From: Bacteroidota bacterium
GTDB taxonomy: Bacteria > Bacteroidota > Bacteroidia > Bacteroidales > JAAUTT01
Assembly: GCA_021779665.1 (NCBI GenBank)
Contig: JAJYAG010000067.1
Span: 1-32,311, forward strand
Length of the DNA stretch: 32,311 nucleotides
Reading direction: 5' to 3'
Shown: piece after piece, positions 4,479-30,577 of the stretch
How positions within the stretch are numbered: position 1 is the stretch's first letter
How the letters are laid out: each line of letters begins with the position of its first letter
Made by a program: the position numbers and the translations under genes
The notes under the pieces: model-generated
The model's input: only the letters and a program-made list of their open reading frames with translations
Databases searched by the model: none
What the model was told of the DNA's origin: nothing

Positions 4479-5300
4479 TTGAATAATTTCTTTAAGCGCA
4501 CCATCACAGGAGCATTATTTGTGGTGGTGCTTATTGGTTCTATACTCTGGCATCCTGTTTCTTATGCGGTCTTATTTTCTGTAGTGGTTGTTCTGGGCCT
4601 TTGGGAGTTTTACAGTCTGATTAAAATTAAGGATATCCATCCTCAGAAATATATTGGAGTTATTGCGGGGTTATTATTGTTTCTGGCAACTTTCATAAGT
4701 GCACAAAATTACCTTCACTCGGGTTTGTTCATTTTATTGATTCCTGCTGCTGCGGGAGTTTTTCTTTTGGAGCTTTTCCGGAATAAACCAAATCCATTTC
4801 ACAACATTGCCTTTACCATACTTGGTGTATTATACATTGCTGTTCCGTTTTCGCTTTTAAATTCCCTGGTATATCCCGATTATATTACATTAAAATACAA
4901 TCCCGAGATTCTTATCGGTTACTTTGTACTTATCTGGACGAGCGACACAGGTGCTTATCTTACAGGAATAACCATTGGGAAACATCCCTTATTTAAGCGC
5001 ATTTCTCCTAAAAAGTCGTGGGAGGGTTTTATTGGCGGAACGTTGCTGACCATTGCCATGTCGGTTCTGGTATCTCGTTTTTCGCACGAAATAAATGTTT
5101 ATCATTGGGTAATTGTTGCTGTTATAATTGCTATTTTTGGCGTCCTGGGCGATTTGGTCGAATCGATGCTTAAAAGAAGCCTGGATGTGAAGGACAGTGG
5201 TAATTTCCTGCCCGGTCACGGAGGGATTCTCGATCGTTTTGATTCGCTTATCATTTCATCTCCCTTTGTTTTTACTTTTATTCAATTATTCACAAATTAA
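4479..5300 (+). CDS. cdsA: Phosphatidate cytidylyltransferase
   Basis: Makes CDP-diacylglycerol from phosphatidic acid and CTP in the inner membrane, the branch point of phospholipid synthesis. The 273-residue protein is polytopic (about eight hydrophobic segments). The family signature lies at 229-255: SMLKRSLDVKDSGNFLPGHG and then GILDRFD, with the conserved K-D and D-R-x-D residues; WTSDTGAYLTG (153-163) is also typical. The start is TTG at 4479, giving LNNFFKRTITGALF, which is the usual N-terminus in relatives; no better ATG exists. Psd begins 3 bases after its stop, so the two phospholipid enzymes are tightly linked. The phosphatidylserine synthase that links their reactions is encoded separately at 25593-26342. 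Confidence 0.95.
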   Translation: MNNFFKRTITGALFVVVLIGSILWHPVSYAVLFSVVVVLGLWEFYSLIKIKDIHPQKYIGVIAGLLLFLATFISAQNYLHSGLFILLIPAAAGVFLLELFRNKPNPFHNIAFTILGVLYIAVPFSLLNSLVYPDYITLKYNPEILIGYFVLIWTSDTGAYLTGITIGKHPLFKRISPKKSWEGFIGGTLLTIAMSVLVSRFSHEINVYHWVIVAVIIAIFGVLGDLVESMLKRSLDVKDSGNFLPGHGGILDRFDSLIISSPFVFTFIQLFTN

Positions 5301-25592: not shown

Positions 25593-26342
25593 ATGTTTTT
25601 CAGGTCGAAAGTTTTGGTACATGTTCCTAATTTTATTACAATATTAAACCTTATTTCAGGTGCAATCGGGATTTTCTTTGTTTTTCAGGATAAAGTCATA
25701 TGGGCTTGTATAATGATATACATAGCCGGGCTCTTCGATTTCCTTGATGGTTTTGCAGCCCGCCTCTTAAAGGCAACCTCTGAAATTGGTAAGTCACTCG
25801 ACAGTCTTGCCGATGTGATAAGCTTTGGGCTACTACCTTCCGCTATTTTATATTACATCATTAAACTTATAATTTACCAGATAAATCCTGCATTCTCTCT
25901 TACAGGTGCATCAGTTGCCGAAATTCTTTTATTATCATCTTCGCTTCTGATAGTTGCTTTTTCGGCATTAAGACTCGCAAACTTCAATGTCGACACGCGG
26001 CAAAGTCATGGTTTTATAGGTGTTCCCACTCCTGCCACCGCAATGCTGATCTCATCATTTCCTTTTATTATTAATCAGGGAACTTTTGGTGCAGTATTAT
26101 TAATGAAGCTATACATTATTATACCGCTTATTCTGGTACTTTCGTTACTGATGGTGTCTGATATTCCAATGATTGCCCTTAAGTTTAAAAGCTTCAGTTT
26201 TGCAAAAAACATTTATGTTTATCTGCTGATAATTATATCCGTCATCAGCATTTTACTTTGGGGAGTAACTTCAATTCCGCTGATATTTCTGGTTTATATA
26301 CTGTTCTCGGTGCTGCAGGCAAAGAAAGAGAAAGTTTTATAA
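25593..26342 (+). CDS. pssA: CDP-diacylglycerol--serine O-phosphatidyltransferase
   Basis: Inner-membrane enzyme that joins serine to the phosphatidyl group of CDP-diacylglycerol, giving phosphatidylserine. The 249-residue protein has about eight hydrophobic segments. The CDP-alcohol phosphotransferase signature is complete: D49, D52-G53, A56-R57, G66, D70 and D74 in the DFLDGFAARLLKATSEIG-KSLDSLAD region. I chose ATG 25593 (MFFRSKVLVHVPNFITILNL); a TTG at 25572 would add seven residues but falls in the -7 box. It supplies Psd (5304-5960). It stands alone and converges with the cytochrome bd operon across a bidirectional terminator. Confidence 0.93.
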   Translation: MFFRSKVLVHVPNFITILNLISGAIGIFFVFQDKVIWACIMIYIAGLFDFLDGFAARLLKATSEIGKSLDSLADVISFGLLPSAILYYIIKLIIYQINPAFSLTGASVAEILLLSSSLLIVAFSALRLANFNVDTRQSHGFIGVPTPATAMLISSFPFIINQGTFGAVLLMKLYIIIPLILVLSLLMVSDIPMIALKFKSFSFAKNIYVYLLIIISVISILLWGVTSIPLIFLVYILFSVLQAKKEKVL

Positions 26343-26409
26343 AATAAATCCTGCCGGAATTTCAGGTCAGTTATCATCCTTGTTTCCAATCATTTCAGGA
26401 ATTCGTAAA

Positions 26410-26444
26410 AAAGTCGGTTGCCATTAATATTGACAACCGACTTT
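26410..26444. terminator. Bidirectional terminator between pssA and the cyd operon
   Basis: A perfect 11-bp stem, AAAGTCGGTTG (26410-26420) with CAACCGACTTT (26434-26444), 13-base loop. On the minus strand the stem leads into six T residues, a strong terminator for the cyd transcript; on the plus strand the T tract is weaker (TTTAATATTTTT), still usable for pssA. Confidence 0.85.
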
Positions 26445-26464
26445 AATATTTTTCCTGTAAAGGT

Positions 26465-26578
26465 TTATTCAGGATTACTTTGAGTTTTTTCGAACCGTTT
26501 GATAAAAAACTGAACCGCGTAGGAACTTCCAAATATGAAAACCGGCCAGAAAAGCAGCCATAATATTTCTGATAGCAT
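26465..26578 (-). CDS. Single-TM 37-aa protein, candidate CydX-like subunit of cytochrome bd
   Basis: Begins 3 bases after the cydB stop codon and reads MLSEILWLLFWPVFIFGSSY then AVQFFIKRFEKTQSNPE. One hydrophobic helix rich in Trp and Phe (about 5-26) is followed by a short charged tail. CydX of Escherichia coli is also 37 residues, has one TM near the N-terminus and a charged tail, and is encoded right after cydB; sequence similarity beyond this architecture is not evident to me. It is the last ORF before the bidirectional terminator. Either a lineage-specific CydX analogue, or an unrelated small membrane protein that shares the operon. I leave the gene symbol blank. Confidence 0.6.
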   Translation of the reverse strand: MLSEILWLLFWPVFIFGSSYAVQFFIKRFEKTQSNPE

Positions 26579-26581
26579 ATC

Positions 26582-27709
26582 TTAATATTTATGATGTTCG
26601 TTATTTAATTCTTCTTCAGTAATTTTCGTTTTGTCAATTGCTTTCCATGCATAATAGATGTATGCAAAAACAAAAGGCACAAACAGAGAAACATAACTCA
26701 TTGCAATAAGCGTGTACTTGCTCGACGAACTGTTTTCGATGGTTAAAGAACTTTGCAGATCGAAAGTTGAAGGATAAAAGGCTGTATTGTTAAAGCCTGC
26801 AATTAAAAAGAGCGAGAATACGGCAAGCACAGTTCCAATCCCTGTAAACCAGATTCCTTTGGTAGCAGCCTTAAACATGGCCATAAAAAGACCATAAAGC
26901 ACAAGTACCACACCCAAAAGGAGAATTACCGTTACCACCGGCATGGCAAGCAGGTTGTGAAGGTATTTGAAAGGTTCCATGGAAACAACTTTCGTAACAG
27001 GATCGTAGGCAAAACCGTCGCGAACCAAAAGCCAGATAAGAAATGTAAGAAAAAAGAATAGGAAAGGAATTGCATTCAGCCAGAGTTGTTTGTAAGCTCT
27101 GTCAAGAATTGGCCTGTTGTTGATATTATTGATGAAGTAGAGTAACCCCAGGGTGCGTGCCAGAAAAAATACTGCAAGACCGAGCGAAAGATTATGAAGA
27201 TTCAGAGCTGCTTCCAATCCGTGCGAAGCTACTTCCCAGCGTGAAGAATTTAAATCGCTCACTGAAAATAGAGATCCGGTAAAGAAAGTGGCCACTGCTG
27301 TTCCAATTAATATTGTACCCAGAGCTCCATTGATAAGCAGAAACGTTTCGTAAACCTTCTTACCCAGGAAATTCTGTGGTTTTGACCGGAATTCGTACGA
27401 AACCGCCTGGATAATAAAGCAGAAGAGTATCGCCATCCATACCCAGTAAGCGCCACCGAAACTTGTAGAATAAAACAGAGGGAACGATGCAAAAAAGGCC
27501 CCTCCAAAGGTTACAAGAGTTGTGAATGTAAATTCCCACTTGCGTCCCAGGGAATTAACCAAAATTGTACGTTCCATTTCGGTTTTCCCGATGTGTAGCA
27601 GAGTTTGGCCACCTTGTACAAACATTAGAAAAACCAATAAGCTTCCCAGCAGAGAAATAATAATCCACCAGTATTGCTGTAATGCTAAAAGTGATAACGA
27701 TTCGAACAT
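26582..27709 (-). CDS. cydB: Cytochrome bd oxidase subunit II
   Basis: Subunit II of the high-affinity quinol oxidase of the inner membrane. The 375 residues have about nine hydrophobic segments; the N-terminal block reads QQYWWIIISLLGSLLVFLMF and then VQGGQTLLHIGKTEMER, where enterobacterial CydB has a TDGFD-type motif, so its acidic residues are replaced by Gln here. GRKWEFTFTTLVTFGGAFFA and SFGGAYWVWMAILFCF follow, and FNNTAFYPSTFDLQSSLTI is near the C-terminus; all are typical for Bacteroidota CydB. cydA ends one base upstream and the 37-aa ORF begins 3 bases after it. This completes a compact oxidase operon. Confidence 0.95.
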   Translation of the reverse strand: MFESLSLLALQQYWWIIISLLGSLLVFLMFVQGGQTLLHIGKTEMERTILVNSLGRKWEFTFTTLVTFGGAFFASFPLFYSTSFGGAYWVWMAILFCFIIQAVSYEFRSKPQNFLGKKVYETFLLINGALGTILIGTAVATFFTGSLFSVSDLNSSRWEVASHGLEAALNLHNLSLGLAVFFLARTLGLLYFINNINNRPILDRAYKQLWLNAIPFLFFFLTFLIWLLVRDGFAYDPVTKVVSMEPFKYLHNLLAMPVVTVILLLGVVLVLYGLFMAMFKAATKGIWFTGIGTVLAVFSLFLIAGFNNTAFYPSTFDLQSSLTIENSSSSKYTLIAMSYVSLFVPFVFAYIYYAWKAIDKTKITEEELNNEHHKY

Positions 27710-27710
27710 A

Positions 27711-29276
27711 TTAATTTCCTCCTTCGGTTGGTCCTATTTTTATCTGTTTGGTCATAATCTTAATCTCGGCAATAAGCAGAGCGGTAAACACTGCAAAGAA
27801 CAGCCAGAATGTAATCTGGACAGCACTTGCATCAATCTGCGAAACCGCTGCCACCGTAGGCAGATAATCCTGAATTACCCAGGGCTGCCTTCCCACTTCG
27901 GCCACAACCCATCCACTCTGGCTCGCTATATAGGCCAATGGAATTGAGAATAGCAGCAGGTACAGGAATTTCCGTTTCCTAAATAATGATCCTTTATAGA
28001 TAAACCTTAGCACCAAAGCAAACATGATGATAAAATAGAATCCGAAGAGCACCATTATGTGGAAGCTGTAAAACGAAATTGGAACGTTGGGAATCAGATC
28101 CTTGGGATCATTTAAAAATCCATAGCCAAAATATTTAAAATAGTTTTCCTGGAAAGCAGGTTCGGCAAACTTGGCTTTTAATTGATTATACAATATAGTA
28201 TCGCCGTTTTTCTTGGCGTCTTTAAACTCCCGTAATGCTTTTCGAGCAAGTTTGCCTCTGTCCATTTTTTCGGTAGCCGACATGATGCCCTGCTCTTTAT
28301 TACCATCAACCAGATCGTTAATGCCCGGTACAAAGGCGTTTGGATCGAGGTAGGCCATGTAGGAGAGTACGTTGGGAATCTCAATTTTGATTTTGATATC
28401 CGACAAATAGTTTTGCGAAGTGCTGTCCTTTTCGCCGGGTATAACTCCAAAGGCCATAAGAGGAGCACCGTGGCTGCCATTGTAAAGCCCTTCAAAAGCT
28501 GCAAACTTCATAGGTTGTTTCTGTGCAACCAAACGGGCAGAAGTATCGCCCGAGAATGCCAGGAAAAGTGATGAAAGTAAACCAAAGACTCCTGCTACAA
28601 TCATGCTTTTGACAGCAAATTGTTCGTTTCTTTTTTTGATCAAAAACCATGCGCTCACACCTACTACAAATACCGAAGCCAAAACATAGCCTGAAGTAAT
28701 GGTATGTAAGAATTTGTTAATGGCAACCGGAGAAAACAAAACCTCCCAGAAGTTTAGCATTTCGTTACGTGCTGTTTCGGGGTTAAAATGCATCCCGGCA
28801 GGAAACTGCATCCAGCCATTTGCTACTAGAATCCATAAGGCTGAAAGATTTGCACCGAAAGCGACCAGCCATGTAGAAACCAGGTGAAACTTTGGACTCA
28901 CTTTATTCCAACCGAAGAACATAACTGCGATAAAGGTGGATTCGAGAAAGAAAGCCATGATACCTTCAATGGCCAGCGGTGCTCCGAAAATATCGCCTAC
29001 AAACCAGGAATAATTGGACCAGTTGGTACCAAATTCAAACTCGAGAATAATTCCTGTGGCAACACCAATTGCAAAATTAATCCCGAAAAGAGTCATCCAG
29101 AATTTAGTAATGCGTTTCCATTCAGGGTTTTTGGTTTTCAGATAGATAGTTTCCATAAAGGCAACTATAAATCCCAGTCCAAGCGTTAACGGTACAAATA
29201 GCCAGTGATACATTGCGGTTAATGCAAATTGGGCCCTGGACCAGTCTACCAGTGAGTAATCGAATTGCTCTGTCAT
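27711..29276 (-). CDS. cydA: Cytochrome bd oxidase subunit I
   Basis: Heme-bearing subunit I: oxidises quinol and reduces O2 to water at high affinity. The 521 residues include the heme ligands expected for the family: H24 (b595, in TAMYHWLFVPL), H191 (FLHTITSGYV, b558), and M408 (SFHIMVL, b558). E104 and E112 lie in AIEGIMAFFLEST. The quinol-binding loop begins at KQPMKFAAFEG (253-263), and GWVVAEVGRQPW (455-466) is the standard C-terminal signature. The Q loop is of the short type, without the enterobacterial insertion. A DUF4492 gene lies 12 bases upstream. The operon diverges from the heme-copper oxidase operon. Confidence 0.97.
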   Translation of the reverse strand: MTEQFDYSLVDWSRAQFALTAMYHWLFVPLTLGLGFIVAFMETIYLKTKNPEWKRITKFWMTLFGINFAIGVATGIILEFEFGTNWSNYSWFVGDIFGAPLAIEGIMAFFLESTFIAVMFFGWNKVSPKFHLVSTWLVAFGANLSALWILVANGWMQFPAGMHFNPETARNEMLNFWEVLFSPVAINKFLHTITSGYVLASVFVVGVSAWFLIKKRNEQFAVKSMIVAGVFGLLSSLFLAFSGDTSARLVAQKQPMKFAAFEGLYNGSHGAPLMAFGVIPGEKDSTSQNYLSDIKIKIEIPNVLSYMAYLDPNAFVPGINDLVDGNKEQGIMSATEKMDRGKLARKALREFKDAKKNGDTILYNQLKAKFAEPAFQENYFKYFGYGFLNDPKDLIPNVPISFYSFHIMVLFGFYFIIMFALVLRFIYKGSLFRKRKFLYLLLFSIPLAYIASQSGWVVAEVGRQPWVIQDYLPTVAAVSQIDASAVQITFWLFFAVFTALLIAEIKIMTKQIKIGPTEGGN

Positions 29277-29288
29277 TAATATAGGTTT

Positions 29289-29498
29289 TTATCTGGTTAA
29301 TTGTTCAATAACATAGTTGCTTCTGTCCTTGTCGTTATTAAATTTTGTCTTCAGGAAATTTGGGAAGAAGAAGATCTTTAAAATAACAAACATTATAAAG
29401 AGTTTTATAAGAATAATCAACCACAGTTTTTTCCCAACTGTCATTCCTTTAAAACCTTCATAATAAAAATAGAATATTTTCTTAATGAATAAAAACAT
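29289..29498 (-). CDS. DUF4492 protein upstream of cydA
   Basis: 69-residue protein with one strong TM segment (about 24-46) and basic ends: MFLFIKKIFYFYYEGFKGMT, then VGKKLWLIILIKLFIMFVIL, and a hydrophilic tail ending RSNYVIEQLTR. It matches the DUF4492 family, which in Bacteroidota is encoded just before cydA; a role in assembly or stability of cytochrome bd is likely but not shown. It is the first gene of the operon (12 bases before cydA). Confidence 0.8.
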   Translation of the reverse strand: MFLFIKKIFYFYYEGFKGMTVGKKLWLIILIKLFIMFVILKIFFFPNFLKTKFNNDKDRSNYVIEQLTR

Positions 29499-29618
29499 TT
29501 AAGTCAGGTTTTTTATTTATATTTAAGAGGTTACAACATGTTTCTGTTTTTCGGAATGATATTGCATTTTAATTTTCATATAAAGTTTTAAAATTTAGTG
29601 AGGTTTTCTGTTAAAAAT

Positions 29619-29652
29619 AATGCTTTTAATTTTTCTTCTAAACAAAAGCATT
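29619..29652. promoter_or_regulatory. 9-bp inverted repeat between the two terminal-oxidase operons
   Basis: The 299-bp divergent spacer 29499-29797 is very AT-rich and holds no gene I can see. In its middle AATGCTTTT (29619-29627) and AAAAGCATT (29644-29652) form a perfect inverted repeat with a 16-base spacer. No T tract follows, so it is not a terminator. It could be an operator shared by the cyd and cox operons. I see no FNR-like TTGAT-N4-ATCAA site. For the plus strand, TTG-N16-TAAGTTTA (TAAGTTTA at 29773-29780) just before the SCO1 gene is the best promoter candidate. Confidence 0.4.
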
Positions 29653-29797
29653 TTGAAATTGTTAAGGTATGTCAGCAAAAAGATTCCTCCGTGAAAACTG
29701 CTATTAATTCATTATGAATAAGTTTTAAATAAAGCAAGTATGCTAATTCAGAATTGTTTTAAATAAAAGTGCTAAGTTTATAAAACATATACCGCTT

Positions 29798-30577
29798 ATG
29801 AAAAAAATATTCATTCTTTTACTGGCCGCTGCTTTGTTTTTACCGGCATGGTCACAGGATCTGGTTCAGGAAACCGAAATTGGCATTGACGAAAACCTTG
29901 ACAGCATCATGCCTCCTGACATCTATGTTACCAATGAAGCGGGAGAAAAGGTTTTGTTAAACAAACTGATAGACAAGCCTACAATCTTAAATCTGGTTTA
30001 TTACCGTTGTCCCGGAATTTGTTCACCGCTCATGGAAGGTGTGGCTGATCTTATTTCGAAAACCGATATGGAAATCGGGAAAGACTACCAGGTTGTTACA
30101 ATCAGTTTTGATCCCAGGGAAGATATAGAACTGGCAAAATCGAAAAAGAAAAATTATCTGAAGCTTGTAAAAAAAGGTGATGCCGTAAATGGCTGGAAAT
30201 TTTTTGTGGCCGATAGCGCAAATGTTGCAAACATTACCCGCTTTTTTGGGTTTAAATACAAAAGGACAGGGAATGATTTCCTGCATGCCGCTGCAATTGC
30301 GGTCTTGAGTCCTAAAGGCAAAATAACCAGATATCATTATGGAACTGAGTTTCAACCATTCGAATTTCGCATGTCGGTTATTGAGGCTAATAAAGGACAA
30401 TCGCAACCTACTATTAACCGGTTACTAAAATATTGTTTTAAATATGATGCAGAAGGTAAGAAGTATGTGTTAAATGTAACAAGAGTTTCAGCGACCTTTA
30501 TTTTTGGCCTGGCTTTATCAATTTTTCTATATCTGGTTTTAAAACCTATCTTTTCAAAACAAAAAGCAAAAAAGTAA
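29798..30577 (+). CDS. SCO1/SenC family copper chaperone for cytochrome oxidase
   Basis: Delivers copper to the CuA site of subunit II or acts as a thiol reductase in oxidase assembly (periplasmic face). The 259 residues begin with a signal peptide (about 1-19, cleavage near AWSQ). A thioredoxin-like domain has the copper ligands C71 and C75 in YYRCPGICSPLM and H163 in NDFLHAAAIAVLSP; VVTISFDPRED is typical. Unlike many SCO proteins it carries a C-terminal TM (about 227-247), so it is anchored at its C-terminus. Subunit I begins 4 bases after the stop. The expected CuA-bearing subunit II gene is not next to it. Confidence 0.9.
   Translation: MKKIFILLLAAALFLPAWSQDLVQETEIGIDENLDSIMPPDIYVTNEAGEKVLLNKLIDKPTILNLVYYRCPGICSPLMEGVADLISKTDMEIGKDYQVVTISFDPREDIELAKSKKKNYLKLVKKGDAVNGWKFFVADSANVANITRFFGFKYKRTGNDFLHAAAIAVLSPKGKITRYHYGTEFQPFEFRMSVIEANKGQSQPTINRLLKYCFKYDAEGKKYVLNVTRVSATFIFGLALSIFLYLVLKPIFSKQKAKK

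Follow-up and report, generated by a model that had tools for sequence, protein, structure and literature searches.

The cyd operon in the window (the whole 32,311-nucleotide stretch of DNA that was analyzed) closes with a 37-aa open reading frame, here called X (MLSEILWLLFWPVFIFGSSYAVQFFIKRFEKTQSNPE, from ATG to TAA), whose product we consider, with a probability of roughly 80%, to be a small subunit of the long-Q-loop cytochrome bd oxidase, with a single helix that would pack in the CydA groove used by CydX. Judged from its substitutions and its neighborhood, X is a conserved protein-coding gene tied to cydB; it is represented by no family model, and it is a probable small-subunit gene in many Bacteroidales.

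Organization of the cyd operon

The genes run on the minus strand in the order DUF4492, cydA, cydB, X (Table 1), and the cydB reading frame ends at 26582, 3 bases from X, so that the position, length, and spacing that an earlier note had given for the small frame are exact. That note was right to end the operon with a small frame after cydB, but left unmentioned the DUF4492 gene upstream of cydA; the gene in this position is named cydW in P. gingivalis. The DUF4492 model scores above its cut-off in 35 of 60 relatives, and the gene also precedes cydA in Parabacteroides distasonis and in Bacteroides ovatus, both of which are without X. The window CydA aligns over positions 8-517 with E. coli bd-II CydA, and over nearly the same span with that of bd-I, and is thus of the long-Q-loop type.

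A hairpin ~20 nt past the X stop bears out the terminator that had been placed after the frame, with a folding energy of -21.4 kcal/mol for the folded stretch and a z score of -6.2 (0 of 200 shuffles are as good), and is likely the intrinsic terminator of the cyd operon. It was not among the sites returned by a simple terminator scan, presumably because its stem takes up part of the T run; a weak site that the same scan places inside X is at chance level (5 found vs 4.4 expected). An Rfam search of 26300-29800 gave no RNA family at the gathering threshold.

Table 1. Features of the cyd operon and model helices of its CydA
Feature	Position	Strand	Remarks
X, 37-aa single-TM ORF	26465-26578	-	Terminal gene of the cyd operon; candidate CydX-site small subunit
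cydB, cytochrome bd subunit II	26582-27709	-	PF02322, E 3.6e-66
cydA, cytochrome bd subunit I	27711-29276	-	PF01654, E 5.7e-166
DUF4492 membrane protein, 69 aa	29289-29498	-	PF14899, E 1.3e-29; first gene of the operon
Hairpin, T-rich 3' end	26410-26444	-	14 pairs, 7-base loop
CydA TM1	CydA residues 7-48		Model helix
CydA TM4	CydA residues 128-157		Model helix
CydA TM5	CydA residues 183-213		Model helix
CydA TM6	CydA residues 218-253		Model helix

Coding pattern and predicted topology of X

By codon comparison, purifying selection on X is strong. Among 38 disjoint pairs, a pS of 0.56 compares with a pN of 0.16, and there are 292, 192, and 593 differences at codon positions 1, 2, and 3, respectively. 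Of the 45 closest pairs listed, 40 have a dN/dS between 0.03 and 0.26, four are saturated, and one is at 0.47. The excess of synonymous over nonsynonymous change in relatives, which had been proposed as a check on the gene, is therefore present. All 98 detected reading frames begin with ATG, some of them being the same place fetched twice, and the family has the core motif I-x-W-xxx-WP-xx-I-xx-SY. Among 91 different peptides, the most conserved positions (window numbering) are P12 (88), I15 (86), I5 (85), W11 (78), Y19 (76), W7 (75), and K27 (72); the window peptide itself departs from the family consensus at some positions, with S at 19 and Y at 20. The short length of the frame is what could suggest a chance ORF or noncoding conservation, but the dN/dS values, the third-position excess, and the common ATG and motif rule this out, leaving it a negligible probability.

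AlphaFold2, run with a 51-sequence alignment, predicts a single helix over residues 2-33 (mean pLDDT 85.5), and the content of Lys plus Arg is higher in the C-terminal than in the N-terminal flank in 91 of 91 peptides. Both agree with the single transmembrane helix and charged tail described in the earlier note. The basic flank of a transmembrane helix lies on the cytoplasmic side (the positive-inside rule), and X would accordingly be oriented with its N terminus out and its C terminus in.

Distribution of X

X belongs to part of one order and not to the whole phylum. Matching frames were found at once in 22 of the first 30 cydB loci of relatives, and one further locus (L006) has X 396 nt downstream of cydB. 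Searching 60 relatives with a 57-member X profile gave 27 matches with E <1e-6, in 25 of the 60 and under 22 family codes, and all 27 follow a cydB (coordinates compared by eye), the farthest by ~421 nt. Across 295 genomes of the order, with at most 25 candidates scored per genome, the profile matched 118 places in 114 genomes (E up to 0.001); at least 107 of the 118 lie on the same strand as, and no more than 630 nt past, a cydB among the 150 cydB places listed, with a median gap of 26 nt between match ends, and six of the other 11 are near a cydB outside that list (G056, L225 to L228, and L231). In a collection of named Bacteroidales, the best 80 of 318 relatives (the loci most like that of the window) include 70 with X among 78 that can be evaluated, two others (L097 and L150) ending too early to judge; a frame downstream of cydB, the other check proposed earlier, is thus kept in relatives, although the peptides at L138 and L144 are divergent and have no WP. 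Carriers include Marinifilum, Labilibaculum, Carboxylicivirga, Marinilabilia, Mangrovibacterium, Ancylomarina, and Lentimicrobium.

Beyond the order, a search of 395 phylum genomes, with no more than 19 candidates scored in each and just six listed genomes of the same order, gave matches with E <0.006 only in the genome of the window itself, so that a subunit proposed for the Bacteroidota at large stands for part of one order and not phylum-wide. Matches with E of 0.006-0.1, among both the 60 relatives and the 395 phylum genomes, are not near cydB, and many contain stops or are part of a longer frame; we took them to be noise. No X-like frame was found by profile in the 24 short-type cydB loci of the phylum sample (L055-L078); the sequence of one of them, L058, stops 12 nt past cydB, and the nearest X-like match is at L049, another short-type locus, with 14 bits. 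A plasmid search with the X family found none. X is also absent after cydB in Parabacteroides distasonis, Bacteroides ovatus, and one Prevotella, which is in line with the available portion of a report on P. gingivalis, where cydX is not encoded and neither cydY nor cydZ follows cydAB (PMC4668044).

Two other operons were noted in the course of these searches. The window genome has a second cydAB copy (L031, G000:C2:35000-43500; 65% CydB identity), with a divergent 34-aa small frame at 4629-4733 (+), 18 nt after cydB. A scan of viral contigs with CydA recovered one operon, DUF4492-cydA-cydB without X, on a contig listed as viral (L195, IMGVR_UViG_3300022753_003446); its CydA, CydB, and DUF4492 identities are 52%, 55%, and 44%, respectively.

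Gain and loss

Among 174 different cydB loci of the window type (at least 45% identity), 114 have X (X+; at least 15 bits), 56 do not (X-; best score 8.4 bits), and four cannot be judged, a ratio that is not a frequency because some loci were fetched for being X-. The 56 loci indicate that X is not indispensable. On a CydB tree (FastTree, with many weak branches), carriers are spread over several deep branches, and the trait requires at least 19 changes, nine if only starred branches are counted, compared with 47 in shuffles. This fits an old gene that was lost many times, although the tree cannot tell gain from loss.

CydA residues and the presence of X

Residues of the CydA groove go with the presence or absence of X. 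In a comparison of 71 X+ and 46 X- CydAs, 12 of the 25 columns that best separate the two are in TM6 (219, 223, 226, 230, 234, and 238), TM5 (190, 194, and 197), TM4 (139 and 143), and TM1 (36), and the spacing of the TM6 columns (4, 3, 4, 4, 4) places them on one face of the helix. The Q-loop, other loops, and termini account for the remaining 13, with none within the limits set for TM2, TM3, TM7, TM8, or TM9. TM6 is the only CydA helix raised on both measures of divergence (uncorrected p 0.002 and 0.004), and the Q-loop as a whole differs between X+ and X- (p 2e-8). CydX is described as binding CydA TM1, 4, 5, 6, and 7 in the available part of PMC8951039, and as lying on helices 1, 5, and 6 in the accessible text of a 2026 cryo-EM study (PMC13189123), which also gives E. 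coli CydA Ser233 as a residue of the CydA-CydX interface. Position 238 of the window CydA aligns to E. coli Ser233.

Seven states accompany the absence of X, namely K/R at 226 (27 of the 46 X- CydAs), L at 238 (29), F at 190 (23), W at 197 (25), W at 230 (8), a residue other than A at 139 (24), and a nonaromatic residue at 36 (24). They occur in none of the 71 X+ CydAs, and 39 of the 46 X- CydAs have at least one, counts to be read with the facts that the states were chosen after the data were seen and that the X- loci belong in part to a single clade. Five proteobacterial CydAs accompanied by CydX, one from E. coli and four from plasmid records, have none or one of the seven, and the one is always at position 36, which is thus not diagnostic. 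A CydZ-associated CydA has two, and the X-less viral-contig CydA, which was left out of the column analysis, has five. None of the seven is present in the X- CydAs of L121, L148, L156, L160, L167, L238, and L239; L121, L148, and L160 have an X+ relative at 91-94% CydB identity, and at these loci X may either have been lost recently or be encoded elsewhere. At window CydA position 427 (codon near 27998), at the end of the TM7 helix, K/R is found in 35% of X- and 0% of X+ sequences.

Phylogenetic controls back this contrast in part. Residues private to X- sequences are found in eight CydA transmembrane columns, six of them in TM1/5/6, whereas 300 unions of randomly chosen clades, similar in size and excluding those much like the real labels, give a mean of 0.62 private transmembrane columns (maximum, 4) and of 0.17 in TM1/5/6 (maximum, 2). 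When the largest X- clade (16 rows) is removed, 10 of the top 12 transmembrane columns are still in TM1/5/6, eight of them in TM6, and among identity-matched X+/X+ pairs, 0 of 400 draws are as high in TM6 share as the mixed pairs. The 35 nearest X+/X+ pairs, which are more closely related, have a TM6 share of 0.323, compared with 0.327 for the 44 mixed X+/X- pairs, which are not independent. An unweighted ranking likewise puts 10 of the top 12 transmembrane columns in TM1/5/6; clade splits reach up to 8, and 200 random labelings give a mean of 4.7 and up to 9. Among plain clade splits, the one closest in size (45 rows, 76% X-) has eight private transmembrane columns, four of them in TM1/5/6, and lopsided clade splits have up to 24. 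A test on independent pairs was set aside, having too few pairs on starred branches (n = 7): columns 226, 238, 234, 219, and 223 fit the direction, none significantly, and the medians among the summaries listed are p 0.125-1.

For X against CydA/CydB, covariation measured as mutual information (MI-APC) in 71 loci shows no enrichment in TM1/5/6 and scattered peaks, and at an Neff of 53 is uninformative. These peaks fall over CydB, TM8, TM9, and the Q-loop, and together with the position of the gene next to cydB and the slightly higher variability of CydB TM5 in X- loci (uncorrected p 0.02), they are what could be cited for binding of X elsewhere, for example on CydB or at the site of CydH. CydH (E. 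coli YnhF, also called CydY) is, like X, a single-helix bd subunit, but sits between TM1 and TM9 and is encoded outside the operon, according to the available portion of PMC8951039. Such a location is improbable given that seven of the eight transmembrane columns with X- private states are in TM1/4/5/6, with one in TM9, and that residue composition is not significantly different between X+ and X- loci in any CydB helix.

Relationship to known small subunits

The window peptide alone has no match in Pfam, NCBIfam, or PDB (E up to 10), and a 26-member X family gives only weak, unrelated matches, the best with E of 0.0095 in Pfam, 0.074 in NCBIfam, and 2.8 in PDB; neither PF08173 (CydX) nor PF10617 (CydZ) is among the matches of the family with E up to 10. 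The CydX model is above its cut-off in none of the 60 relatives and below it in 26 (E up to 1). Of 14 named genomes used as controls, the same model matches 7, E. coli being one of these, and is above cut-off in two. A profile-profile comparison of X with five CydX sequences gives 24% probability over nine columns, with WLLSW over WYFAW, and the best of 16 control helices reaches 13.7%; kinship with CydX by this route is suggestive, yet within reach of control helices.

CydX/AppX (PF08173) nevertheless resembles X in its 37 aa, its place after cydB, a WxxxW near the start of the helix, and a long-Q-loop CydA, and the groove proposed for X, on CydA TM1/5/6, is the one that CydX uses. X differs in having no PF08173 match and in its WP motif and basic C-terminal tail, and the five CydX sequences begin MWYFAW or MWYFSW. 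CydZ (DUF2474, PF10617) is also a small helix with Trp encoded after cydB, but its partner is a short-Q-loop CydA (as given in the accessible part of PMC4325964), whereas the CydA of X is of the long type; X has no Pfam match to CydZ, and the profile probability against one CydZ is 0.4%. CydS of Geobacillus takes the place of CydX on CydA with a single helix (PMC8951039, available portion), in a short-Q-loop enzyme (PMC13189123, accessible text), and searching PDB sequences with X gave no match to it.

In print, the description closest to X is that of CydY/CioY, a short helix with a conserved Trp at its start, encoded, like X, after the cydB of a long-Q-loop operon lacking cydX, although in another phylum; CydY is given for 15 species of the Epsilon- and Deltaproteobacteria in the portion of PMC4325964 available. 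X is probably a CydX-site subunit of the CydY/CioY kind, a likeness drawn from printed descriptions. The CydX-like label of the earlier note is supported as to a candidate small subunit after cydB, but CydY/CioY is nearer by description, the Trp, Pro, and Tyr reported for these matching X. X may well be an orthologue of CydY/CioY, and so the small subunit of the Campylobacterota, by descent or by operon transfer, and we lean slightly toward this; it is a reading of ancestry and compatible with the groove mechanism. Campylobacter jejuni CioY has 34 aa, is encoded after cioAB, and binds CioA by coimmunoprecipitation, and is reported to conserve Trp, Pro, and Tyr (PMC11955535, in its available part), as X does at P12, W11, Y19, and W7. 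Allen et al. (PMC4325964, same portion) describe a small hydrophobic protein, left without a name, upstream of cydA in every such operon, a place taken here by DUF4492. Independent origin of X in the Bacteroidales, with convergence on the same groove, is rather unlikely: the weak and unrelated Pfam and NCBIfam matches and a CydX profile match near control level would be expected of it, but hints of a shared origin come from the Trp/Pro/Tyr pattern and from the register of WxxxW where the helix begins.

Among the leading matches in open-licence literature, we recognized no report of such a small subunit in Bacteroidota, and the available text of PMC4668044, on P. gingivalis, holds the one explicit statement found on the absence of cydX, cydY, and cydZ in this phylum.

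Proposed role of X

X would be a third component of the long-Q-loop cytochrome bd oxidase, or a fourth with DUF4492. Its helix, N-out and C-in, is proposed to pack on the CydA groove formed by TM1, TM4, TM5, and TM6, the CydX site in E. coli, where it would support the heme b558 side of CydA and its stability next to the Q-loop and perhaps, as with CydX, contribute to a dimer interface. Translation of X, its binding, stabilization of the enzyme, and a need for it in activity are what we infer from sequence comparison. In CydAs without X, bulky residues and snorkeling Lys or Arg may seal the exposed face. The Bacteroidales may thus have two bd architectures, a proposal to which we give even odds: one with the groove filled by X, and one without X in which the groove is re-engineered, with the TM6 residue equivalent to E. 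coli Ala221 being Lys, Arg, or polar, together with Phe 190, Trp 197, and Leu 238. Loss and repair would have been repeated, and the enzymes of Bacteroides, Parabacteroides, and Prevotella would be of the repaired kind. As CydX in E. coli makes up the dimer interface and also, at Ser233, a second quinone site (PMC13189123, in the text accessible), the two kinds may also differ in dimerization and quinone binding.

The X+/X- series within one order allows a test of the role of a single-helix bd subunit, with a named face of CydA. X-bearing Bacteroidales contrast with the host-associated species looked at by name, which are without X, and a Bacteroides bd structure may not represent these relatives.

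X away from cydB

A few matches to the X profile in the order are without a cydB beside them. One is at a contig end (G456), and one (G564:C109, E 7.8e-4) is probably false and was treated as noise. At L224 (G667:C78, reverse strand 346-471), X has no neighboring cydB, and the gene that follows it presumably encodes an FprA-like flavodiiron protein; a relocated gene was considered here, but both this X and the cydB of the same genome (L221) are near contig ends, and an assembly break explains the arrangement equally. At L229 (G467:C112, reverse strand 1527-1664), there is no cydB in the 1.5 kb upstream of X. A peptide acting in assembly or regulation of the oxidase, and not as a lasting subunit, could account for such a gene, but X presence goes with residues on the CydA surface, as would be expected of a lasting contact, and we regard an assembly factor or regulator as quite unlikely. 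Finally, at L232 (G526:C212, 1530-1733, +), in a genome without a cydB match, there is a degraded-looking remnant of X with no cydAB, between what we take to be SCO1-like and PssA-like genes (also by their resemblance to the window), an arrangement suggestive of deletion of the oxidase genes.
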